Origin: Candidatus Obscuribacterales bacterium
Lineage (GTDB): Bacteria > Cyanobacteriota > Vampirovibrionia > Obscuribacterales > Obscuribacteraceae
Direction of reading: 5' to 3'
NCBI GenBank assembly: GCA_020050835.1
Contig: JAGVKB010000115.1
Coordinates: 1-40,384 of the forward strand
Length of the DNA stretch: 40,384 nt
Part shown: positions 11,601-23,277 of the stretch, piece by piece
Layout: every line of letters starts with the position of its first letter
How positions within the stretch are numbered: position 1 is the stretch's first letter
Made by a program: the position numbers and the translations under genes
Notes under the pieces: model-generated
Databases searched by the model: none
What the model was told of the DNA's origin: nothing
Seen by the model: only the letters and a program-made list of their open reading frames with translations

Positions 11601-13319
11601 TCAGGCGTCTTGCTTCTTCTTTTTTGCCTGCTCTTTCTCTTTTTGCTTGGCACGTTTGGCCGCCAGCCGAGCTGCTTCTTCTTCGGCCGTCTTTGCGGCA
11701 AGCAACTTTTGTTTGGCCTCTTCCTTCTTTTGCAAGTAATAGGAGTATCCGCCAGGATAGCTGTGCAGTTCGCCATCGCAGATTTCAACTATTCGATTAG
11801 CGATCTTGGACATGAAGTAACGGTCATGGGAAATGACGATTACTGTGCCTTCGTAATTGATGATAGCTTCTTCGATCATCTCCTTGGCCGGAATGTCCAG
11901 ATGGTTTGTGGGCTCGTCCAGGATCAGAAAATTGGCCGATTTTAGCATCATCTTGGCCATCGCCAAACGTGCTTTTTCTCCACCGCTCAATGATTCCACA
12001 CGTTTGAAGACATTGTCGGCGCTGAATAAGAATCGGCCTAACAGAGCGCGAATATCTTGGTCTTTCCAATCGGGAGCTTCGTCAGCTACCGTCTCCAAGA
12101 CGGTCTTGGAGAGATCTAAGGCCTCGGCTTGATTCTGTTCGAAGTAGGCTGTAACTATATTGTGCTCACCCAGGCTCACTTTGCCATAGGTGGGTGATTC
12201 CATTCCCATCAATAGCCTGAGCAGAGTCGATTTACCCGAGCCGTTGGGACCCAAGAGTGCAATTCGATCTCCTCGTTCAATTGCCAGCTTTGCTCCCAGA
12301 AAGACAAACTTCTCTCCGTAGGAATGAGTAAGATCTTCGACCGTAGCTACCGAGCGTCCGCTGCGAGCCGAGTTGGGGAAGCGAAACTTGAGTGTCTTTT
12401 CGTCTCCTTCTGGGGCTTCGATCAGCTCAATCTTATCGAGCTGTTTCTCTCGACTTTTGGCCTGTGTGCTGCGAGTGGCGCTCGCTCGAAAGCGATCCAC
12501 AAAAGCCTGCTGCTTTTCCATCTCTCGTTGCTGCCGTTCGTAAGCAGCTAGTTGTGATTCCTGCTGCAGCGCTTTCGCTGTCACATAGGCCGAGTAATTA
12601 CCGAGATATTGATTGGACACGCCGCGTTCTACCTCGATGATGCCTGTGCAAAGTCGGTCGAGGAATTCGCGATCGTGGGACACGATCACCATCGGAGTCG
12701 ATAAGCCCTTCAAGTAGACTTCCAGCCATTCCACTGTTTCTAGGTCGATGTGGTTGGTCGGTTCATCCAGCAGCAGCAGATCGGGCTCCTGCAACATTAT
12801 CTTGCCGAGGCTTATGCGCATCTGCCAGCCGCCGCTGTAGCTCCCCACCAGACGCTCGGCATCTTCCAACGGGATGCCGATGTCGGGCATAACCTTTTCG
12901 GCGCGATGTTCGAGCGCATAACCATTCCTGGCCTCAAACTCTCGTTGAAGTTTGTCCAGTTTGTGCAATAGACGAACCGACTCTTCCGGAGTCGCGGTAA
13001 CTAGTGCATGTTGCACTTCGTGCAGCTCGTGGCGAATCTTGTCCACGTCCTTGAATGCTCTAAGCAGCTCATCCAGAACTGTATTTTCAACGTTGACGTC
13101 AAACTCTTGGCTCAAGCAGGCGATCTTCAGTCCGGACTTCTTGATCACTTCACCTGTAGTCGGCTCGATTTCGCCCATGATTATCTTGAACTGAGTGGTT
13201 TTGCCGCTGCCGTTTGCTCCTACCAAGCCCAGCCGTTCGCCGCTCTTAACTTCCCAGCTCACGTCCTTGAGGGCCTCGCCCATGGGGTAAATTTTGCTAA
13301 TTCGATCTAGTCTGAGCAT
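11601..13319 (-). CDS. ABC-F family ATPase
   Basis: This 572-residue protein has two ABC domains and no membrane segment. Domain 1 has Walker A GANGSGKT, signature YSGGW and LLLDEPTNHID. Domain 2 has GPNGSGKS, LSGGEKAR and LDEPTNHLD. The linker between them (VDRFRASATRSTQAKSREKQ) is the basic helical hairpin that ABC-F proteins insert towards the ribosomal tRNA sites. The C-terminus is a short Lys/Glu-rich helix (EKEQAKKKKQD). ABC-F proteins act on the ribosome, resolving stalls or protecting against antibiotics; which role applies here cannot be told. It is divergent from a second ABC-F gene and upstream of the DHH-like gene. Confidence 0.94.
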   Translation of the reverse strand: MLRLDRISKIYPMGEALKDVSWEVKSGERLGLVGANGSGKTTQFKIIMGEIEPTTGEVIKKSGLKIACLSQEFDVNVENTVLDELLRAFKDVDKIRHELHEVQHALVTATPEESVRLLHKLDKLQREFEARNGYALEHRAEKVMPDIGIPLEDAERLVGSYSGGWQMRISLGKIMLQEPDLLLLDEPTNHIDLETVEWLEVYLKGLSTPMVIVSHDREFLDRLCTGIIEVERGVSNQYLGNYSAYVTAKALQQESQLAAYERQQREMEKQQAFVDRFRASATRSTQAKSREKQLDKIELIEAPEGDEKTLKFRFPNSARSGRSVATVEDLTHSYGEKFVFLGAKLAIERGDRIALLGPNGSGKSTLLRLLMGMESPTYGKVSLGEHNIVTAYFEQNQAEALDLSKTVLETVADEAPDWKDQDIRALLGRFLFSADNVFKRVESLSGGEKARLAMAKMMLKSANFLILDEPTNHLDIPAKEMIEEAIINYEGTVIVISHDRYFMSKIANRIVEICDGELHSYPGGYSYYLQKKEEAKQKLLAAKTAEEEAARLAAKRAKQKEKEQAKKKKQDA

Positions 13320-13338: not shown

Positions 13339-13477
13339 ATGAAATGGTTGCCGATTGTGACGGACCAAAGAAGTCCGACGCTTCACTATTAGAGCACTCT
13401 TACGACTTTTCAGCGCTCAGAAATCCCAAAAGCATAATTATTGGCTATGATCCTTGGACGACAGGAGAAAGTTCTTT
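13339..13477 (+). promoter_or_regulatory. Leader of the uup-like gene, with hairpin and possible short uORF
   Basis: The divergent ABC-F genes leave 156 bp once the TTG start at 13476 is accepted. This leader contains a 17-codon ATG frame (13339-13392, MKWLPIV...LHY) and a 5-bp hairpin CGGAC/GTCCG (13361-13377) inside it. Some ABC-F genes are controlled by ribosome-mediated attenuation through leader peptides. The uORF has no good ribosome-binding site, so this is only a suggestion. AGGAG (13463-13467), 8 bases before TTG, is a good ribosome-binding site. Confidence 0.3.
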
Positions 13478-15278
13478 GGCCATACTCGTTAGCTGCCAGT
13501 CCATAGGCAAGGCGTACAGCTCGCGCCCTTTGTTTCGGGACATATCTTTTGGAATAGAGGAGCGCGAGCAGATCGGGTTGATCGGGCCCAATGGCTCGGG
13601 AAAGTCAACATTGCTTAAGATTTTGGCCGGTTTGGTAGAGCCGGATGACGGCGCTGTTGTTTCGCGAAAGCGGCTAAGAGTAGCGGTCTTGTCGCAGAAT
13701 GAAGCGTTCTCGACCGAAAGTACTGTCGAGCAGATTGTCAGGGATGCTGCCACGGAAGTGCAGTTTGAGAATCATGAGCGCGAGGCATCGATTGATTCAA
13801 CACTGGCAGCTGTAGGATTCCCAGACAGGCAAGCCATAGCCGGCTCGTTGTCGGGGGGCTGGCGTAAACGCCTGGCAATAGCCTGCGCACTGGTCAGGCG
13901 ACCCGAACTGCTGCTTCTGGATGAACCCACCAACCATCTCGATTTAGAAGGGGTGATTTGGTTGGAAGCTCTCTTAAAAGCGGCGTCGTTTTCTTTCCTG
14001 TTGGTTAGTCATGATCGGGCGTTTCTAGAAGCCGTCACAAATCGAATTGTGGAGTTGAACCCGGTCTATCCTCAGGGATTCCTAAGCGTCAAAGGAAATT
14101 ACAGCCAATTTCTCGAAGCAAAGGAGGGGCAAGTCGAGGCGCAAGTCAACCTTCAGCAGGCGCTGGCCAGCAAAGTTCGCCGGGAGATTGCCTGGTTGCA
14201 GCGCGGCGCCCGTGCCAGGCAAACAAAGGCGAGAGGTCGAATTCAGGAGGCCGGCAAGTTAATCGATCAACTGGCGGAAGTTAAACAGCGCAACTCGCTT
14301 ACCAGTCCAATTGAGATTGGCTTCGACGCATCAGGGCGAAAGACCAAAGAGCTGCTTTCCGCCAAAGCAATCGGAAAGTCGATTGGTGGACGCTTGTTGT
14401 TCGGCGATTTGAGTTTCGTTCTTTCCCCCGGTATCAAGCTGGGCGTTGTCGGTCGCAATGGCAGCGGCAAAACGACTTTGTTGAAGGTGATAGCAGATCA
14501 ATTAGTGCTTGATTCAGGCTCGGTCAAACGAGCGGACTCGCTGAAGATAGTCTGGTTCGACCAAGATCGCCAGCAGCTTGACCAAGCAAAGTCGCTCAAG
14601 GAATCGCTCTGCCCGTCCGGGGATACGGTGACATATCGCGGACGGAATCTTCATGTTACTTCCTGGGCTAAGCGATTTCTCTTCCGTCCCGATCAGCTGA
14701 ACATGCCGATAAGCTATCTGTCTGGCGGTGAGCAGGCGCGGATTTTAATCGCCAACTTGATGCTCAAGAGCGCCGATATCTTAATCCTGGACGAGCCGAC
14801 CAACGACCTTGATATTCCGTCGCTAGAGGTGCTCGAGGAGAGCCTGGAAGACTTTCCTGGTGCGGTTGTACTGGTTACGCACGACAGACTGATGCTAGAT
14901 CTTGTTTCAACTCATGTTCTTGCTTTGCACGGTGATGGCAGGGCAGAGTTCTTTAGCAACTATGAGCAATGCGAGCGAGCGTTAGCAAATCTCACGCCTG
15001 CCGAGCTGAGCAAGCCGCAACGATTGGAGAAGCAAGACAATCGCCCCGCAAAGGACAAGGCGAAGCTATCCACCGCACAGACTCGTGAGCTGGCCGCCAT
15101 GCCGGATAAAATCGAAAAACTGGAATCAGCCATCAAAGCGCTCCAGGATGACATGAACAAGCCGAATATCGCTACCAATTACGCCAAGCTTGAGGAATTG
15201 ATGCAGCAGCAGCAAGCGACGCAGCGAGAGCTGGATCAGCTCTTCTCTCGCTGGGAAGAGCTTGAGTCGCGTCGTTGA
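13476..15278 (+). CDS. uup: ABC-F family ATPase, Uup-like with C-terminal coiled coil
   Basis: This 600-residue tandem ABC protein has GPNGSGKST, LSGGWRKR and LLDEPTNHLD in domain 1. Domain 2 has GRNGSGKTT, LSGGEQAR and LDEPTNDLD. A linker rich in Arg and Lys (WLQRGARARQTKARGR) lies between them. The last 65 residues are a predicted coiled coil (IEKLESAIKALQDDM, then LEELMQQQQATQRELDQL) of the type that defines Uup and binds DNA in E. coli. The TTG start is chosen because AGGAG lies 8 bases upstream and the conserved domain begins at once (ILVSCQSIGKAY). A longer in-frame ATG frame from 13344 adds 44 residues unlike any ABC-F protein and would leave only 24 bp between divergent genes. Confidence 0.92.
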   Translation: MAILVSCQSIGKAYSSRPLFRDISFGIEEREQIGLIGPNGSGKSTLLKILAGLVEPDDGAVVSRKRLRVAVLSQNEAFSTESTVEQIVRDAATEVQFENHEREASIDSTLAAVGFPDRQAIAGSLSGGWRKRLAIACALVRRPELLLLDEPTNHLDLEGVIWLEALLKAASFSFLLVSHDRAFLEAVTNRIVELNPVYPQGFLSVKGNYSQFLEAKEGQVEAQVNLQQALASKVRREIAWLQRGARARQTKARGRIQEAGKLIDQLAEVKQRNSLTSPIEIGFDASGRKTKELLSAKAIGKSIGGRLLFGDLSFVLSPGIKLGVVGRNGSGKTTLLKVIADQLVLDSGSVKRADSLKIVWFDQDRQQLDQAKSLKESLCPSGDTVTYRGRNLHVTSWAKRFLFRPDQLNMPISYLSGGEQARILIANLMLKSADILILDEPTNDLDIPSLEVLEESLEDFPGAVVLVTHDRLMLDLVSTHVLALHGDGRAEFFSNYEQCERALANLTPAELSKPQRLEKQDNRPAKDKAKLSTAQTRELAAMPDKIEKLESAIKALQDDMNKPNIATNYAKLEELMQQQQATQRELDQLFSRWEELESRR

Positions 15279-15468: not shown

Positions 15469-16311
15469 TCACGTAGTTGCGTGTTTAGCCTTCAGCTTAA
15501 ACAGATACGCGTGCAGATGCTCGGTGAACAATCCATGCATGACGAACCGTTGTGACAGACGAAGCGGGCCGACCAGGAAAAGTGGAAATCCGTTGTAGAC
15601 CAGAGAGCTCAACTCCGGTGCAGCGAGTATCCGAGCCACTCTTAGCGCCAGAGTTTGATCGTATTGAAGGGAATTGATCGATCTCTCGTATTCATCAGCC
15701 TTCAGGAACAGGCAGAATGAGGTCTTAAACAGCTCATGAGCAGTCTCGAAGTCGACACATTGTGTCCATCTTGGCTTGAGCGCGCTTTGATCGATTTCGA
15801 CCGGATGAATTGATGAATAATCAACTTCGCCTGGGGAAATCGGCCAGGACTCTTGATCGGTTGAACCCAAGTCGTAGAGTGCATTGAATAGAACAACATC
15901 ATGTTGAATGAAGGAGCAGGTCATTAAATCGTCGATGGTCTTTGGGTAAAGCGTGGATTTTTCTGCTTGTGAGTTCCTGGAATTGTCCACAACGAAGTTG
16001 ATGATGTCCGATTCGGTCCAATAGTGGCGGAGAATTAGGTAGTTGGCCTCCGGAATCACAAACCATTTCATGAACCAGCAGATCATCGCTTGCAATGTAT
16101 TATGCGCGCAGAATTGGATCGGAATTATGCGCTTCAAAAAGTAAGTGGTGCACAACGCCGACGTCGCGAGCAGGCGGCAAACGTGCATGACCGTCATCCG
16201 AAACGGATGCTTCAAGTTAATCAACCAGGCTTCTCGAACAGATGCATCGATCGGTAACGTATCGTCCTTTGCCAGGACGTCGAACAGACTAGGATTGACT
16301 CGGTTATACAT
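15469..16311 (-). CDS. Unknown protein, fourth gene of the ketosynthase operon
   Basis: I do not recognise this 280-residue protein. It is mostly helical and rich in aromatic residues. Residues about 40-85 are hydrophobic with scattered His, Cys and Trp, and IPEANYLILRHYW carries a Glu-Asn-His set. Further His and Asp residues follow (FIQHDVVLFNALYDLG), and a basic C-terminus (HLHAYLFKLKAKHATT). No clear signal peptide is present; it may be membrane-associated. Its ATG overlaps the stop of the upstream di-iron-type gene by 8 bases (ATGTATAA), so translation is coupled and it almost surely works in the same pathway. It could be an enzyme that modifies the ketosynthase product or a carrier or binding protein. 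Confidence 0.8.
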   Translation of the reverse strand: MYNRVNPSLFDVLAKDDTLPIDASVREAWLINLKHPFRMTVMHVCRLLATSALCTTYFLKRIIPIQFCAHNTLQAMICWFMKWFVIPEANYLILRHYWTESDIINFVVDNSRNSQAEKSTLYPKTIDDLMTCSFIQHDVVLFNALYDLGSTDQESWPISPGEVDYSSIHPVEIDQSALKPRWTQCVDFETAHELFKTSFCLFLKADEYERSINSLQYDQTLALRVARILAAPELSSLVYNGFPLFLVGPLRLSQRFVMHGLFTEHLHAYLFKLKAKHATT

Positions 16312-16996
16312 TGCCTAACTCTTCCAGTTGGAGCAGATAGAGACGAGCTACTACCTTGGCTGTTTTGATTATTTCCGGAGCCGTCTTGTCTGCCGATGTC
16401 TGCCCGTCCAATAGTTCATACAATTTCTCAAGGTGAGCTTCGTCGTTCTTGCCGTGATACGAAAGAAAGCTCGTCGCGCTGTCGTCTAGTCCGAGGCATT
16501 CTTGAATCAATCCTGCCCAGCGAGAGGCCATTTTGTTTCCCAGCCCTTCGATAATAAACATGGCTCCCAGCAGGTTGATTGGATTTGGCTTCGAAGATTC
16601 GCTCATCAAGTAACCGGCGAGCGCCTCGGTGCCGATGTTGCGCTGGGCGGACTGAATCTCTTCGAGGCTGCCTCCGACCGAGACGAAGTCTCTTTCAAGC
16701 ATGGTGTAATCGCGATGCTCGTCGACGGCATGCCTGAGCACCAGCGAACGGACTTCAGCGAATTCGGCTGTGAAGCTCGAGGCTGCTCTGGAGATCCAGC
16801 GAGAGCCTTCAATGACTTGTGGTCTCAGATTGAGCAGCAGGGTTTTGTAATCTTCCGGCGTGAATGTCTTTTGTTCTAGCCTGCGAATGATTGGTATGAG
16901 GGAGAGTCTTCTTTCAAAGTCCAGCCAAACGCTCAAAAGATGCCGTAATGTCTCCTGGGCGTTTGCGCCCAGAGTCAATTCTCGTTCAGATAGCAC
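16304..16996 (-). CDS. Haem-oxygenase-like putative di-iron oxidase (iron-containing redox enzyme family)
   Basis: This 230-residue all-helical protein fits the TenA/CADD/UndA haem-oxygenase-like di-iron oxidase (HDO) fold. Candidate metal ligands are spread over the core helices: E63 (VIEGSRW), H89/E93/H94 (RHAVDEHRDY), E150 (FIIEGLGNKMASRW), and H181, D185 and H188 (SYHGKNDEAHLEKL). Such enzymes oxidise or decarboxylate small molecules, often tethered or free fatty-acyl chains, using oxygen. The start is GTG with GGAGG 8 bases upstream, inside the end of the ketosynthase gene (11-base overlap). Its position between a ketosynthase III and an unknown protein suggests that it oxidises the ketosynthase product. 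Fold assignment is moderate; the reaction is inference. Confidence 0.82.
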   Translation of the reverse strand: MLSERELTLGANAQETLRHLLSVWLDFERRLSLIPIIRRLEQKTFTPEDYKTLLLNLRPQVIEGSRWISRAASSFTAEFAEVRSLVLRHAVDEHRDYTMLERDFVSVGGSLEEIQSAQRNIGTEALAGYLMSESSKPNPINLLGAMFIIEGLGNKMASRWAGLIQECLGLDDSATSFLSYHGKNDEAHLEKLYELLDGQTSADKTAPEIIKTAKVVARLYLLQLEELGNV

Positions 16997-18164
16997 TTAC
17001 ATTCCTCCCGGCTGCGACTGTCAGTTTCATGTAGGCGTTGGCGAATCTACCGCTTTCGGGAACTACGCAAAATACTACTTGCCCGGGCTCGAGCTTGCCG
17101 CTGTGAAGCAGCTCGTCCAGGGCGATGAATATTGATGCGCATCCGGTGTTGCCTTTAGTGTAGAGATTGGTAAACCATCTGTCTTCCGGTATGAGAGCGC
17201 CGGCCAGCTTGAGCAGATCTAGGATCCGTCCTTTGAAGTGGTGCGAGGAATAGTGGCAGACGAAATGATCTATCTCCCCCGGCCGAATCTTTCCTTCGTT
17301 GATCAGTTTCAAGAAACCATCGACACCGACTTTTACGACCTCCTCGAGCAGTTTGAGGTTTTGCCTGATCAGCAGCGCTCCGGCTGCCTCCGCTCGACCG
17401 TAGGTGGAATAATCCTGCCATGAAAGCTCGGACGTTTGCGCGGCAGAGGTGATATTGGCTGCCCAGAGGCTCTGGTCGGCGGTGCCGCAAGACATGCAAA
17501 GATCATAGTGTGAAGCAAAAGAGCAAATCTCGATCCACTCAACCTTGTAACTGAGGCCACTCCAGCGTGGTTGGTTTTGAACCAGCATGGCGCCGGCGCC
17601 GTCGGACAACATCCAACGTAAGAACTCGGCTTCGAGATCGATTCGCAGATCGGTTGCTGCCTCGTAACGACTCTTTTTGAGCAGTCTGGACGCGAGCTCG
17701 GAGGCGACGACCAGCGAGTTTTTCTTCTCAGAGAGTCTAACTTGATTGCAAGCTGCTTTCAGCGCCATCATGCCGGCCGAGCAGACACCATGGGTGGTGA
17801 GTATCTCGAGCGGCCCGATCGCCAACTCGGATTGAACCATGCTGGCGAGCCCGGGCAGAGGCAAGTCTCCTTGTGTCGATGCGACCGCGAGCAGATCGAT
17901 CGCCCGCTCGTCGATCTCTGCTCGTTGCAAGCACTGTCTGGCTGCCGCTGCGGCTAGTTGTTTGTTCTGGTGAGTAGAGCGCTGGTGGCGATCTAGAGCA
18001 TAATGCCTGGTCTTTATTCCGTTGCTAGCCAGAATGCGCTTCTTCAGTCTGGAAGGTTTGCTGGCGACCACCCCTAAAATATCTTCGATTTCGTCGTTGC
18101 CTATTGCCGGTCCGGGAAGATAGCTTCCGGTTGAAGTGATGTAGGCATGAGGTGGTTCAGGCAT
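16986..18164 (-). CDS. 3-oxoacyl-ACP synthase III family, StlD/DarB-like ketosynthase
   Basis: With this start it has 392 residues. The N-terminus AYITSTGSYLPGPAIGNDEIE, with SNGIKTRHYALD following, is typical of StlD/DarB ketosynthases that build dialkylresorcinols or cyclohexanediones from two acyl chains. The thiolase-fold triad is visible: C128 (HGVCSAGMMAL), H304 (FVCHYSSHH) and N339 (TKGNTGCAS). A single KS of this class condenses an acyl thioester with a second beta-keto acyl unit. I chose ATG 18164 because it overlaps the upstream stop by 8 bases (ATGCCTGA), the same arrangement as elsewhere in this operon, and the conserved sequence starts there. A TTG at 18245 would add 27 unlikely residues. 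The cyclase/aromatase DarA is not seen in the window. Confidence 0.88.
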   Translation of the reverse strand: MPEPPHAYITSTGSYLPGPAIGNDEIEDILGVVASKPSRLKKRILASNGIKTRHYALDRHQRSTHQNKQLAAAAARQCLQRAEIDERAIDLLAVASTQGDLPLPGLASMVQSELAIGPLEILTTHGVCSAGMMALKAACNQVRLSEKKNSLVVASELASRLLKKSRYEAATDLRIDLEAEFLRWMLSDGAGAMLVQNQPRWSGLSYKVEWIEICSFASHYDLCMSCGTADQSLWAANITSAAQTSELSWQDYSTYGRAEAAGALLIRQNLKLLEEVVKVGVDGFLKLINEGKIRPGEIDHFVCHYSSHHFKGRILDLLKLAGALIPEDRWFTNLYTKGNTGCASIFIALDELLHSGKLEPGQVVFCVVPESGRFANAYMKLTVAAGRNVSAI

Positions 18165-18768
18165 GAGGCGGGAGTCCGGATGAGTTTGGTTGGGAATCTG
18201 AGCTTTCTGATTCTTTGTAGCGATAGCATCTGATGAATTCTTCAATGTAAGGAATTACATCCAGCACTATCAAGGTGAAGAAGTAGTACGTAATGTATTC
18301 GGTGTTGAGTGGATTCTTCTTCCATGCCAGTCCGAGGTTTCCTTGCCAGTTGAAAGTAATGAAATCGACAAAGGCGGGCCAATTGATGCAGATGATTAAG
18401 GCCACAATGACGAATGGCAAGCACTCTAAGAAACTATGAACGTGTGTCTCCAGGATCGATATCTTACGTTTGTGCAGAGCATACTTGACGTCCATGTGGG
18501 CTACCAGCTCATGAAAAATGAGGATAGCAAACATGATTATGAACTGAAGCGCGTTGATTTCAAAGTAAAGCCCCAGTAGGACCGGCAGTCCAACTTGAAT
18601 ACCCATAATGGCATGGAAGACTGATTCTTTCGCGCCGGTCGTTCTCTCAATTTGGGACTGTTTGTGACAATACCAGTCCAGGAAGCCCATAACCAGCCAG
18701 AGCGGCAGGCAGCCGAACATTACGAGATTGAATAACAATACGTCGGGTGGGATGCTTTTCAAGTCCAT
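18157..18768 (-). CDS. His-rich integral membrane protein, first gene of the ketosynthase operon
   Basis: The 203 residues form about 4-5 membrane helices. Histidines and acids cluster at helix ends: D31/H35 (DWYCHK), E48/H52 (ESVFHA), H86-E87/H91/D93 (FHELVAHMDVKYALH), and E107/H109/H111/E115 (ETHVHSFLE). A late D170 and E176/E177 follow (LDVIPYIEE). This recalls membrane di-iron hydroxylases or desaturases, which use His clusters on the cytoplasmic side, but the spacing is not the canonical fatty-acid hydroxylase pattern, so I do not name it. Either ATG 18768 or TTG 18783 may be the start; neither has a good ribosome-binding site. The gene overlaps the ketosynthase start by 8 bases. It probably modifies or exports the lipid-like product. 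Confidence 0.82.
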   Translation of the reverse strand: MDLKSIPPDVLLFNLVMFGCLPLWLVMGFLDWYCHKQSQIERTTGAKESVFHAIMGIQVGLPVLLGLYFEINALQFIIMFAILIFHELVAHMDVKYALHKRKISILETHVHSFLECLPFVIVALIICINWPAFVDFITFNWQGNLGLAWKKNPLNTEYITYYFFTLIVLDVIPYIEEFIRCYRYKESESSDSQPNSSGLPPHA

Positions 18769-18875
18769 TTCGAAGATGCTCAAATAGCTCGCTGTCTAAA
18801 AGGTACCGCAGTCGATTCGAAATCCCCTCTTTACAATTTAATTAAGAGCGGCACACTTTCCCCTCACTTTGTTAC

Positions 18876-18952: not shown

Positions 18953-19264
18953 ATGCCGTGGATTATGTTGTTTATTGCGGGATTGCTTGAAGTTGTTTGG
19001 GCTGTCGGTTTGAAGCTGTCTAACGAGCTTTCTCGACCGCTCGTCGTGAGCATTACTGTGCTGGCCCTTGTTTTAAGCATTAGTCTTTTGGCGGTGGCCA
19101 TGCGAAACATTCCGATGGCTACTGCCTATCTGGTCTGGACCGGCATTGGTGCGGTCGGCACCTTCTTGCTGGGAGCCTTGTGGTTCTCCGAGCCGATCAC
19201 GCCGGTAAAGGCTGTCAGCCTGATTTGCGTGATTATTGGCTTGGTTGGACTTAAACAGGGATAG
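18953..19264 (+). CDS. gdx: SMR-family guanidinium exporter Gdx (SugE)
   Basis: The 103 residues form four membrane helices. The sequence follows E. coli SugE/Gdx closely: WIMLFIAGLLEVVWAVGLK carries the essential proton- and substrate-coupling E13 and the Gdx-type W16, and AYLVWTGIGAVGTF is the conserved third-helix region. The protein forms an antiparallel dimer that exchanges protons for guanidinium, as opposed to the broad drug-efflux Qac subtype. The guanidine-II riboswitch upstream supports the substrate. The gene ends 3 bp from the stop of the convergent PEP-utilising enzyme. Confidence 0.96.
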   Translation: MPWIMLFIAGLLEVVWAVGLKLSNELSRPLVVSITVLALVLSISLLAVAMRNIPMATAYLVWTGIGAVGTFLLGALWFSEPITPVKAVSLICVIIGLVGLKQG

Positions 19265-19267
19265 AGC

Positions 19268-21907
19268 TCATTTACCCGGTGTTGAAAGCACTTTTATGAT
19301 CCCGGTCGAGCCATCTACTTCAATCTCAGTGCCGTCTGGCCACAAAGTAGTTGCTTCGGGGATTCCCGAGACGCAAGGCAGCCCGTATTCTCGAGCAACC
19401 AGTGCGCCGTGTTGAAGCATTCCGCCGACTTCGAGAATGACAGCTGCGGCATTGACGAACAACGGTGTCCAGCCGGGATCCGTAGCGCGGGCAACTAAGA
19501 TCTCGCCTCGTTCTAACGGCTTTTCATCGGGCGCATGCAATACCTTCACTCGGCCGCGCGCAATGCCGGCTGAAATTGGCGTGCCGGCCACTTCTCCTTC
19601 GCGAGCCGGACGAGGAGCGGGACGTCTGATCAATCCTCGCGAGTCAATAATCGCCGGCAGCTTCGGTACTCGAGCCAAGCGATCTGGAAACTCGCGGTTG
19701 CGTTTTCCGGCCTGGCGCAGATCGAAATTTTGATCTTTGAGCCCCTGCCCGAGGTTTTCGAGCGAGAGATCGAAAATTTGCTCCGGCTTATCCAATCGTC
19801 CGGCTTTGCAAAGTGTGTTTGCCTCCGACTGCAAGCGCTGACGAACCAAATCGATTCCGAAGATCAAGCAGTATTTGTGCACTTCTCTGTAACCGGAAAG
19901 AGTCTCAAACACTTTGTAAAGCGACTGAAAGTGCTTCACCTGCAGCCAGCCACGATCATGTAGCTCACTGCAAAGCAATTCGTAGTGCTGGTGCCGCTCT
20001 TGTTGCGCGCGGTCGAATCGATCTTGTGGGTTGTCACTATCTGTAGCTGAATTTCTCAGCATCAACAATTGATCCATCAACATTTTTGGATCATCGCGAT
20101 AACGACTGGAAGCGATGTCCAGCTCGACTGGTCCTCGGTGTCCATAAAGGTTGAGGAATTCAGCCCATTCACGCTGAAAAGCTTCGGGAAGAGAATTATG
20201 TTTTAGCCCTTCCTGCAAGTCTTTCGATTTCATATCTTCAGGCAGCAGTTGTGCCAAATGATAGAGCGCCAACCCCATCTCAGTTGTGATGTTATTTGGC
20301 AAGCCCTTTTCCAGTTTGGCGATCGCCTGCTCATCCTTTGAGCCAACTATAGATTTCATCCGATCGAGGGCGACCCTGGATGCTACGAAAAGTGGTAGCG
20401 TCGTGTGGAATACGGTACCGATTACATGTTCAATCACCGCTTGAACAAAGTCCAGAACGGGAAGGTTTTTGGCTGCCAGCGCGCGCGTCTCGTGCATATA
20501 TGTCGCTATCTCACGCTCCGCACGCCGGTGAGCGTGTTCCGGCAGGATTCTTGCTTCCAGAATGTGCAGCCCGACCTCCGGAAGTTGCCACAGCAGATGA
20601 AGCGGAGGATGTTTCGATTCCTTGTGGAGCGGCAGGTATTCCTGCTCGTCAGTCTGCTGCAAAACTTCGGCTGCCAGCGGATCCATGTTGTTGATTAGCT
20701 GGACGAACTTCTCCTTGCCGGCGATTGCAAACAAGTTTGAGAGGTTCAGGTAGAGTCGACCGTTACTTGGCCACGGCACGGACGTCTCTACGGTCTTGAT
20801 TATGTCCTGTCCGAAAATCCGCTTGCCGGCATACTTGAAGAATCCTGTCAGGACTGATGTTCCCATTGGTGACAGCGGTTTGTAGATACCTTGCACGCTG
20901 ATAGTGACGTCCAGATACAGGCGTTTTCTCTCTCCGGGAGCGCTAACCATCTCCGGTGAAAGTGGCACGAAAGTTGTAATCGGTCGTGCTTGCAGGAGAA
21001 AGAGCTCGCCACCGGCAAATGCCCACTCGATATCCGTCGGCTTTTGGTAGAGAGCTTCTACCTGCACGGTCAATTCGGACAAAGCAAGCAGTTGTTCGTC
21101 TGTCAGCGCTAATTCGGCATGGCGAGGATCCCGGCTCTCACTGGTGCCGCCTGACTCTTTCAGCCAGATCGATGTCTCTTTGCCACCGACGACACGGCTT
21201 TTCACGGTGGCGGTGACCTTGTCGACAATGTAAGTATCAGGAGTAGCGATGCCGGCCACGACGGTTTCACCAAGACCCCAGTTGGCGTTGAAAACCGCCT
21301 CGTCATAATTGTTGGTTAATGGATTGAGAGAAAATCCGACGCCGGCAATTTCACTGGCAATCTGCCTTTGAATCACCACTGCGATGCTCGGGTTCTTCGT
21401 ATCGAAACCGTGCTCACGTTTGTAGACGACGATTCGGTAATCCAGGCAAGAGGCGAAAGCTTTTCGAATGCCATCTTCCAGTGATTTCAAAGTGACACCG
21501 AGGATGGTTTCATAGCCACCGGCAAATGATGAGCCCTCGAGGTCCTCTTCCGGGGAGGAAGAGCGGACGGCAAACAGAGACTCCGTTGCATGGTTCTTCC
21601 TGATTGATGCCAGCGCGGCCGCCTGCTCCGGCGAAAACGCCAGCTTGAGCGCTGCTTTTTTGAGGTCGGCGCAGGCGGCCGCCAACTCGGTGTCCTTGGC
21701 ATTGAGGAAGCGGACCCAAATCGGGCCGGACTTTAGTTCTGCAATCCAAGGGTAAAAGAAGTCCACTGGCAGCACCAGCCCGGGTGGAACCGGCAGTCCG
21801 GCTTCCGCCATTTTGATCAGCGACCACCCTTTGCCGCCCACCTTCGATAGTTGAACCTCTCTGCTGCCAGGAAATGGATAAACTTCTGGGATGGTTGAAA
21901 TGGACAT
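19268..21907 (-). CDS. PEP-synthase-like/rifampicin phosphotransferase-like dikinase
   Basis: The 879 residues form three blocks. Residues 1 to about 320 are the PEP-synthase/PPDK ATP-grasp domain (LSKVGGKGWSLIKMAEAGLPVPPG near the start, FAVRSSSPEEDLEGSSFAGGYE, and DIEWAFAGGELFLLQARP at its end). Residues about 325-770 are a long helical middle domain. Residues about 780-879 are the swivelling phospho-His domain with GGMLQHGALVAREYGLP; the active His is H833. The PEP/pyruvate TIM barrel of true PEP synthase is absent. This order and length are those of rifampicin phosphotransferases, which transfer the beta-phosphate of ATP to the antibiotic. Many family members act on other, unknown substrates, so resistance is not proven. 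The ATG has a strong AAGGAGGG about 11 bases upstream. Confidence 0.88.
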   Translation of the reverse strand: MSISTIPEVYPFPGSREVQLSKVGGKGWSLIKMAEAGLPVPPGLVLPVDFFYPWIAELKSGPIWVRFLNAKDTELAAACADLKKAALKLAFSPEQAAALASIRKNHATESLFAVRSSSPEEDLEGSSFAGGYETILGVTLKSLEDGIRKAFASCLDYRIVVYKREHGFDTKNPSIAVVIQRQIASEIAGVGFSLNPLTNNYDEAVFNANWGLGETVVAGIATPDTYIVDKVTATVKSRVVGGKETSIWLKESGGTSESRDPRHAELALTDEQLLALSELTVQVEALYQKPTDIEWAFAGGELFLLQARPITTFVPLSPEMVSAPGERKRLYLDVTISVQGIYKPLSPMGTSVLTGFFKYAGKRIFGQDIIKTVETSVPWPSNGRLYLNLSNLFAIAGKEKFVQLINNMDPLAAEVLQQTDEQEYLPLHKESKHPPLHLLWQLPEVGLHILEARILPEHAHRRAEREIATYMHETRALAAKNLPVLDFVQAVIEHVIGTVFHTTLPLFVASRVALDRMKSIVGSKDEQAIAKLEKGLPNNITTEMGLALYHLAQLLPEDMKSKDLQEGLKHNSLPEAFQREWAEFLNLYGHRGPVELDIASSRYRDDPKMLMDQLLMLRNSATDSDNPQDRFDRAQQERHQHYELLCSELHDRGWLQVKHFQSLYKVFETLSGYREVHKYCLIFGIDLVRQRLQSEANTLCKAGRLDKPEQIFDLSLENLGQGLKDQNFDLRQAGKRNREFPDRLARVPKLPAIIDSRGLIRRPAPRPAREGEVAGTPISAGIARGRVKVLHAPDEKPLERGEILVARATDPGWTPLFVNAAAVILEVGGMLQHGALVAREYGLPCVSGIPEATTLWPDGTEIEVDGSTGIIKVLSTPGK

Positions 21908-22068: not shown

Positions 22069-23277
22069 ATGCTGAATCTACATGTCCCGGAAGGAATCAA
22101 CTATGAATGCAGCGGCTGCGGTCACTGCTGCCTGGGATGGCCAGTGCCGCTCACGACAGAGGATTATGTTCGCATATGCGAGTACGAGGAAAGTGCTGCC
22201 GGCGGCGCAAGCGGTGCCAGAGCAGCGATGCGAGCGCTTGACGGTGGTTCGGATCCAGCTCTGACAAAATTCACGCACTCGTTGGAAAAGCGAGCGGACG
22301 GGCGTTGCGAGTTTCTGACGGAAGACGACCGCTGCCGTCTACATGTTGAAGCCGGACCGCAGATGAAACCGACTATCTGCCAGCTATTCCCATACAATTT
22401 TACCGAGACTCCCAGTGGGATTTATGCAAGCGTAAGCTTCGTCAGCTCAGCTGCGCTCTTCAACGCTGGGCGTCCGCTTTCGGAGCAGAACGGGCTGCTG
22501 GAGCAAAAATGGGAGCAGTTTCGGCGGGTCTTTCCGGAAGGGTCGCGTAATTGGAGTGAAATTCAGCTGTTCAGCGGGCAGCCGTTGAAGTGGGATGAGT
22601 ACCTTCAAATGGACTCGAGACTATTGGAGCTGCTGCGCGCAGAGCAACCCGAAGGGATAGAGCGAAGGCTGGCAGCCTGCAGCAGATATCTGGTCAGGCA
22701 AGCACCGCGCGGAGTGGATTTCGAACGAATGCCGCCAGTCGAAGCGCGTCCAAAGGTAGTCGATCAGTTGCTCGTCAAGTGGTTGATGGAGTTCTATCTG
22801 ACTGAAGATGTCTATGCCTGCAGCAGTTTCGACCTTTACAGCCAAGCCTTGTTCGCCGATTGCGCTAAGCCACCGCCGGCGGTGATGGTTGCCGACGGCG
22901 ACGCAAAATGCAGTTTCAACCAACTCCTTTCTTTCGAACTGGGGCTGCTCGAGCCGGATTCGGAGGACCTTCTGTCACGATTTGTCTACAACAAGGTCTT
23001 CGGAAAGCTGTATTTCGGTGCCGGCTTGGCTGGGCTGAGCGTGCTCGGAGGCATCCATCATCTGCTCTGGCTGATCGCGCTTATCAGGCTGAAGGCAAAG
23101 ATTCTCTGTATCAGTCAAGAGCGAACCAGGCTCGACTTTCAAGAGTGGGCCGAGATTGTCCGAACACTCGAAAGACGTTTGACGAGGGTGACCTACTCTG
23201 CTGAATCGACTTTCGCCCTGGAGATTCTGATTACGAGTCCGGAGAGAGTTGGGAGGATTTTGACCATAGCCAGGTGA
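22069..23277 (+). CDS. YkgJ/FliB-like cysteine-cluster protein
   Basis: The 402 residues carry an N-terminal Cys cluster: YECSGCGHCCLGWP (four Cys at about 14-20), then CEFLTEDDRCRLHVEAG and PTICQLFPYNF. This is the YkgJ-type (PF03692-like) metal- or Fe-S-binding signature also found in FliB, the flagellin lysine N-methylase. The C-terminal 270 residues are helical. FliB proteins are near this length, but no flagellin or other flagellar gene is in the window, so methylation of flagellin is not supported. It stands alone, 79 bp upstream of the HIT gene. The ribosome-binding site is weak. Confidence 0.85.
   Translation: MLNLHVPEGINYECSGCGHCCLGWPVPLTTEDYVRICEYEESAAGGASGARAAMRALDGGSDPALTKFTHSLEKRADGRCEFLTEDDRCRLHVEAGPQMKPTICQLFPYNFTETPSGIYASVSFVSSAALFNAGRPLSEQNGLLEQKWEQFRRVFPEGSRNWSEIQLFSGQPLKWDEYLQMDSRLLELLRAEQPEGIERRLAACSRYLVRQAPRGVDFERMPPVEARPKVVDQLLVKWLMEFYLTEDVYACSSFDLYSQALFADCAKPPPAVMVADGDAKCSFNQLLSFELGLLEPDSEDLLSRFVYNKVFGKLYFGAGLAGLSVLGGIHHLLWLIALIRLKAKILCISQERTRLDFQEWAEIVRTLERRLTRVTYSAESTFALEILITSPERVGRILTIAR

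Follow-up and report, generated by a model that had tools for sequence, protein, structure and literature searches.

A 40,384-nucleotide contig of Candidatus Obscuribacterales bacterium (GenBank assembly GCA_020050835.1, contig JAGVKB010000115.1; this whole stretch is called the window below), part of a genome of 7.0 Mb, carries on its minus strand four consecutive open reading frames (ORFs). The first gene to be transcribed encodes a membrane protein rich in His and Glu (HisMem). It is followed by genes for a ketosynthase III (KS), for a putative non-haem (di)metal oxidase of the haem-oxygenase fold (HDO) and for a DUF6999 protein. That these four genes are a real and widely conserved bacterial biosynthetic unit is well supported by their common occurrence in several phyla. 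More tentatively, and with a chance somewhat short of even, the operon is read as encoding an O2-dependent lipid pathway in which two acyl chains would be condensed in a DarB-like manner and HDO would oxidise the product in place of DarA. The open-access literature, to which the search was directed (subscription papers lay outside its scope), yielded no paper naming DUF6999, no described pair or fusion of KS and HDO and no account of this unit.

A four-gene unit kept across phyla

HisMem (18157..18768) and KS (16986..18164) both start with an ATG, checked at the codon, and HDO (16304..16996) starts with a GTG; the DUF6999 gene (15469..16311), recognised by its match to PF22523, is the last of the series. 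Neighbouring genes share stop/start overlaps of 8 bases (HisMem/KS, 18157..18164), 11 bases (KS/HDO, 16986..16996) and again 8 bases (HDO/DUF6999, 16304..16311), all on the minus strand. The original prediction, made from the letters of this DNA alone, had described the same overlaps, with which the ORFs and start codons agree, and had concluded that the four genes are made together. This conclusion is strengthened by the KS/HDO junction, where a true gene fusion exists in cyanobacteria as well as in some of the other Pseudomonadota. Residues of HisMem and KS are numbered here from TTG codons at 18783 and 18245, respectively.

A profile scan of public genomes for DUF6999 gave 80 named loci, to which one locus on a Pseudoalteromonas plasmid was added, resulting in 81 distinct loci with duplicates excluded. 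A KS-HDO fusion lies beside DUF6999 in 48 of them, and HisMem, KS, HDO and DUF6999 occur as separate genes in 27. Among the latter, 24 have the gene order of the window without any insert, while two (L021 and L023) are rearranged and one (L098) contains an inserted ORF. Two loci hold KS, HDO and DUF6999, one at a contig edge and the other in a frameshifted metagenome-assembled genome (MAG), and the remaining four show DUF6999 without a full local KS-HDO. When three of these four genomes were searched whole, each proved to have a KS-HDO fusion, either in another place or at the edge of a contig, and the fourth locus (L037) retains the C-terminal end of HDO at its contig edge. The same four genes are present on the annotated megaplasmid of Pseudoalteromonas sp. 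THAF3.

Obscuribacterales, Myxococcota and Gammaproteobacteria share the order and orientation of the four genes, with identities of 35-80%. Within the order of the window 8 of 53 genomes match DUF6999, seven at full length and one by a fragment, and all seven full carriers have the four genes in identical order. In samples of two phyla the unit is rare, as DUF6999 scores over its cut-off in 7 of 292 sampled Cyanobacteriota genomes and in 9 of 398 sampled Pseudomonadota genomes, the latter sample having been drawn around a known carrier. In a reverse search, which started from the KS model, every sampled cyanobacteriote genome whose cluster-type KS is intact (G000, which is the genome of the window, G039, G060, G123 and G129) was found to possess DUF6999; in G099 KS-HDO is broken and DUF6999 is absent. 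The fusion gene of this last genome (L146, 9386-10981) contains an interrupting stop, a case of decay of the whole unit. A relic of DUF6999 comprising about residues 201-251 lies at 5649-5801 of L178 in a genome related to that of the window (G743), with no other cluster gene found nearby.

Chance neighbourhood is ruled out by the conservation across phyla together with the KS-HDO fusions. The conservation of the neighbours, which had been named beforehand as a point to check, thus turned out in favour of the unit. A comparison of neighbourhoods showed recurrent genes outside the four only among close Halomonadaceae. The fused or separate state of KS and HDO changed at least twice on the KS tree, where a single clade for all fused KSs is disfavoured (approximately unbiased test, p-AU 0.028). 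Either two fusions occurred or one fusion was followed by a later split; the link between KS and HDO is therefore more than one inherited accident. The fusions predict that substrate is handed over between a condensing and an oxygen-activating enzyme. Some carriers, among them Halomonas, Colwellia and cyanobacteria, can be cultured.

The ketosynthase and the missing DarA neighbour

KS bears the Pfam label ACP_syn_III, its best solved relative is StlD and its top NCBIfam model is 'StlD/DarB family beta-ketosynthase' (NF005293; 371 bits, E 6.5e-111; naming cut-off 450). Cys155, His331 and Asn366 align with the catalytic residues of StlD and are invariant in 16 KSs; by pattern search the His and Asn motifs were found in 83 of 83 KSs and the Cys motif in 79 of them. 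A tree of 51 proteins, among them 14 FabH-like proteins of which two belong to the window's own genome, separates all StlD/DarB-type proteins from the FabH-like ones at 100/100. The original prediction had pointed to this phylogeny as decisive, and the split rules out KS as a FabH paralogue. All KSs of the clusters form one group (94/83) next to a KS of a Streptomyces plasmid, with StlD and the cyanobacterial DarB outside. Among named genomes, the MAGs Cyanobacteria bacterium TGS_CYA1 and SZAS-4 come closest in the gene tree, and from their names the window's genome is taken to be an Obscuribacterales-like member of the non-photosynthetic Cyanobacteriota.

KS is thus a sister clade of StlD/DarB, not nested within DarB and not itself DarB. 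It was filed in this way because its scores are below the naming cut-offs, that against the DarB model NF053539 being 313.7 bits (cut-off 550), although one cyanobacterial cluster KS exceeds the cut-off of NF005293 with 450.4 bits. With StlD and DarB, known from the Photorhabdus stilbene, dialkylresorcinol and cyclohexanedione pathways, it shares the superclade, the Cys-His-Asn positions and about 34-43% identity. In contrast to them, it is coupled or fused to HDO, is accompanied by DUF6999 and has no DarA-like partner in the window's genome. Since the clade and the aligned catalytic triad agree, KS should carry out a DarB-like two-chain condensation.

DarA is listed as DAR-aromatase next to DarB (PMC3949708). 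The classical DarB genes of two cyanobacteria, of Streptomyces plasmids and of Catenovulum adjoin a flavodoxin-like protein in the DarA position, and this protein, which is DarA-like by position only and whose name is unconfirmed from a database, was used as query. As a positive control it found matches in three genomes with classical DarB. It found none in the genome of the window, so that the earlier remark that no DarA-like gene is seen now holds genome-wide for this query, and none in 14 of 15 other carriers of DUF6999. The exception, Catenovulum, carries besides the four-gene cluster a second system on a different contig, a complete DarA-DarB pair; both systems can therefore coexist and are not substitutes for each other in one genome. 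This pair, a classical DarB with its flavodoxin-like neighbour, is located at 5623-7678 of L164 (Catenovulum agarivorans, G316, contig C8). The cyanobacterial bartoloside/dialkylresorcinol clusters (L144 and L145), which consist of DarA, DarB and a glycosyltransferase, share the DarB-type KS with the unit of the window but have the flavodoxin-like protein and the glycosyltransferase, and neither HDO nor DUF6999.

Related ketosynthases were also seen on other plasmids. In Prevotella (L148, 8373-10143), Bacteroides (L149, 7406-9131) and Phocaeicola (L150, 5406-7131) a lone StlD/DarB-like KS directly follows a TetR/HTH regulator, with no annotated DarA or acyl carrier protein (ACP), possibly as a plasmid-borne signal or lipid gene pair. 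Two Streptomyces plasmids (L147, 11763-21339; L151, 8772-18333) share a cluster of ACP, DarB-like KS, DarA-like protein, flavin adenine dinucleotide (FAD) monooxygenase, SCP2, FabF, P450, ACP, FabG and LLM oxidoreductase.

The oxidase, DUF6999 and the membrane protein

Characterised HDOs bind two metals by means of an E-H pair on helix alpha1, E on alpha2 and H-(D/E)-H on alpha3 (PMC11363339; PMC13185094). The HDO of the window matches PF14518 with 41.1 bits (cut-off 28.9), and H89, E93, D96, E150, H181, D185 and H188 are invariant in the alignment. E150 on alpha2 and H181-x3-D185-x2-H188 on alpha3 agree with the metal motif of known HDOs. The motif E-H-E-H-(D/E)-H (PMC11363339) is accordingly present except for the His of the first helix, which is replaced: the alpha1 pair is E93-x2-D96 and not E-x2-H, and in the sequence alignment D96 stands opposite the His of the solved relative 3dde. 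H89 precedes E93 by one helical turn and may take the place of the missing His, or else the metal site may be unusual; the adjacent H94 is not invariant, as the fused proteins from other Pseudomonadota have Gln at this position. The protein is best described as one of the HDO fold whose motif is atypical, and as a putative metal oxidase. It shares PF14518, the alpha2 Glu and the alpha3 H-x3-D-x2-H with UndA, CADD, SznF and MboA, but differs from them in E93-x2-D96 with the invariant H89 and in its fusion to a ketosynthase in some lineages. The system would also bear on the role of an Asp in place of a metal-binding His in HDOs.

The fourth protein, called unknown in the original prediction, is a member of PF22523 (292 bits, cut-off 27), with positions 2-275 of 275 covered. 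About 29 residues are invariant, many of them His, Asp, Glu and Arg, including R95, H96, H137, D138, D187, E189, E207, H259 and E264, and to judge from the alignment this set looks like an active site. The AlphaFold2 model is all-helical with a predicted local distance difference test (pLDDT) value of 91.5. A fold search of the PDB gave nothing above noise (best Z 3.4), which is not evidence of a new fold. DUF6999 as a diverged HDO was rejected by a negative hhalign comparison with the HDO profile, and a Foldseek match to the HDO PolF (E 1.7, TM-score 0.14) is meaningless.

HisMem, a predicted membrane protein with four transmembrane helices (pLDDT 92.8 in the AlphaFold2 model) and of an unnamed family, matched no Pfam or NCBIfam family, and its fold search of the PDB likewise remained within noise (best Z 6.4), again not evidence of a new fold. 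In an alignment of 24 sequences E53, H57, H91, E92, H96, D98, E112, H114, H116 and E182 are invariant, and the conserved motifs are D-x3-H, E-x3-H, H-E-x2-A-H-x-D and E-x-H-x-H. All nine tested four-gene carriers have HisMem exactly once per genome and inside the cluster; it is absent from 20 of 20 cyanobacterial carriers. Pseudomonadota without HisMem often have a fatty-acid desaturase gene in its place. Directly before the fused KS-HDO gene a desaturase (PF00487) is found in six loci of other Pseudomonadota, in two of them alongside a fatty-acid hydroxylase (PF04116), and one myxococcal locus holds both HisMem and a desaturase. These membrane di-iron enzymes are His/acid-rich like HisMem and occupy the same position next to KS, but HisMem has no match to either family and no HxxHH boxes. 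A relationship was also rejected by direct comparison, as none of 22 HisMem members came near a Pfam cut-off (best PF04116, E 0.11) and hhalign profile comparison with the neighbouring desaturases was negative.

HisMem may nevertheless be a membrane metal protein that performs an acyl-chain step comparable to that of a desaturase. The original prediction had placed two likely metal-dependent oxidation steps on either side of the condensation: the HDO step is supported, and the HisMem step is suggested by the His/Glu/Asp set and by the desaturase replacement elsewhere.

Possible chemistry and neighbouring genes

Substrates, order of steps, product, metal content and biological role are what we infer from these comparisons. 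In the proposed DarB-like pathway, KS would condense one acyl thioester with another, most likely a beta-ketoacyl with an alpha,beta-unsaturated acyl thioester as StlD and DarB do, to give a cyclohexanedione-type or related two-chain compound. HDO, beside KS or fused to it, would then oxidise this product by dehydrogenation/aromatisation, hydroxylation or C-C cleavage, and with O2 and iron could do what DarA does in the classical dialkylresorcinol pathways. DUF6999 would be the obligate partner, either as a second enzyme or as a hand-over protein. HisMem, or the fatty-acid desaturase in other lineages, might provide a variable membrane step which tailors the acyl chain before or after. The pathway idea of the original prediction is in this form partly supported.

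Several points weigh against this proposal. KS scores under both NCBIfam naming cut-offs, and its substrate choice may therefore differ from that of DarB. Furthermore, HDO lacks the canonical His in the first metal helix, so that its cofactor is uncertain, and DUF6999 is without a known fold relative in the PDB. Among the genes next to the cluster no ACP was identified. HisMem and an adjacent desaturase are both lacking in the cyanobacterial carriers, and the membrane step is thus not essential. In addition, the sampling began from DUF6999, which favours complete clusters, and the frequency of lone KS-HDO is less well measured.

Two other routes appear unlikely, though each has some support. 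On an acyclic two-chain route an OleA-like KS would form a long beta-keto acid or ketone, from which an UndA-like HDO would remove carbon dioxide or a C1 unit to leave a long-chain alkene, ketone or alcohol. Head-to-head ketosynthases are indeed known (PMC4578411), UndA decarboxylates fatty acids and characterised HDOs act mostly on fatty or amino acids (PMC13108848), and the desaturase neighbour would fit a hydrocarbon-like chain. However, the KS clade is on the StlD/DarB side with StlD as the nearest named relative, in a tree without OleA, and around the four-gene clusters no other gene, those of the Ole pathway included, was found to recur. With a similarly low probability, HDO acts before KS: it would desaturate or hydroxylate an acyl thioester and supply the unsaturated donor, and KS as the last core step would yield a cyclohexanedione or pyrone that stays unaromatised. 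The existence of the HDO desaturases MboA and VarO (PMC13185094), the alpha,beta-unsaturated acyl donor used by StlD/DarB (PMC4578411) and the lack of the DarA-position protein in the window's genome are in line with this order, and the KS-HDO fusion fits transfer in either direction. Yet an unsaturated acyl-ACP is an ordinary intermediate of fatty-acid synthesis, and a dedicated O2-dependent step would seem costly. That KS merely initiates ordinary fatty-acid synthesis amid unrelated neighbours, for which its Pfam label could be cited, is highly improbable in view of its separation from the FabH-like proteins, those of its own genome included, and of neighbours that are kept across phyla and fused to it.

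The unit links two orphan families of proteins with a defined chemistry, acyl condensation and non-haem iron oxidation, and thereby opens a direct route to their function. It would also put to the test whether an oxygenase is able to take over from DarA, aromatising DarB-type products or diverting them. A broader and slightly more speculative view, likewise below even chance, is that an undescribed class of O2-dependent two-chain lipids, perhaps a redox-active resorcinol or quinone, is common to cyanobacteria, Obscuribacterales, Myxococcota and Pseudomonadota; KS-HDO would be its bifunctional synthase, DUF6999 would represent a novel family of enzymes and HisMem would be a membrane metal enzyme of a new kind.

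A check for viral origin found no viral contigs. Divergent from HisMem, a SugE-like small multidrug resistance transporter is encoded at 18953-19264 (+) of the window, which elsewhere is not kept beside the cluster. It is followed at 19268-21907 (-) by a protein resembling phosphoenolpyruvate (PEP) synthase/rifamycin phosphotransferase, for which every curated cut-off is well above its score, and at 22069-23277 (+) by a CxxCxxCC-domain protein which resembles the flagellin lysine-N-methylase FliB below the cut-off. On the other side of the unit, 11601-13319 (-) and 13344-15278 (+) encode adjacent divergent ATP-binding cassette (ABC) proteins of the ABC-F type with two ABC_tran domains each.

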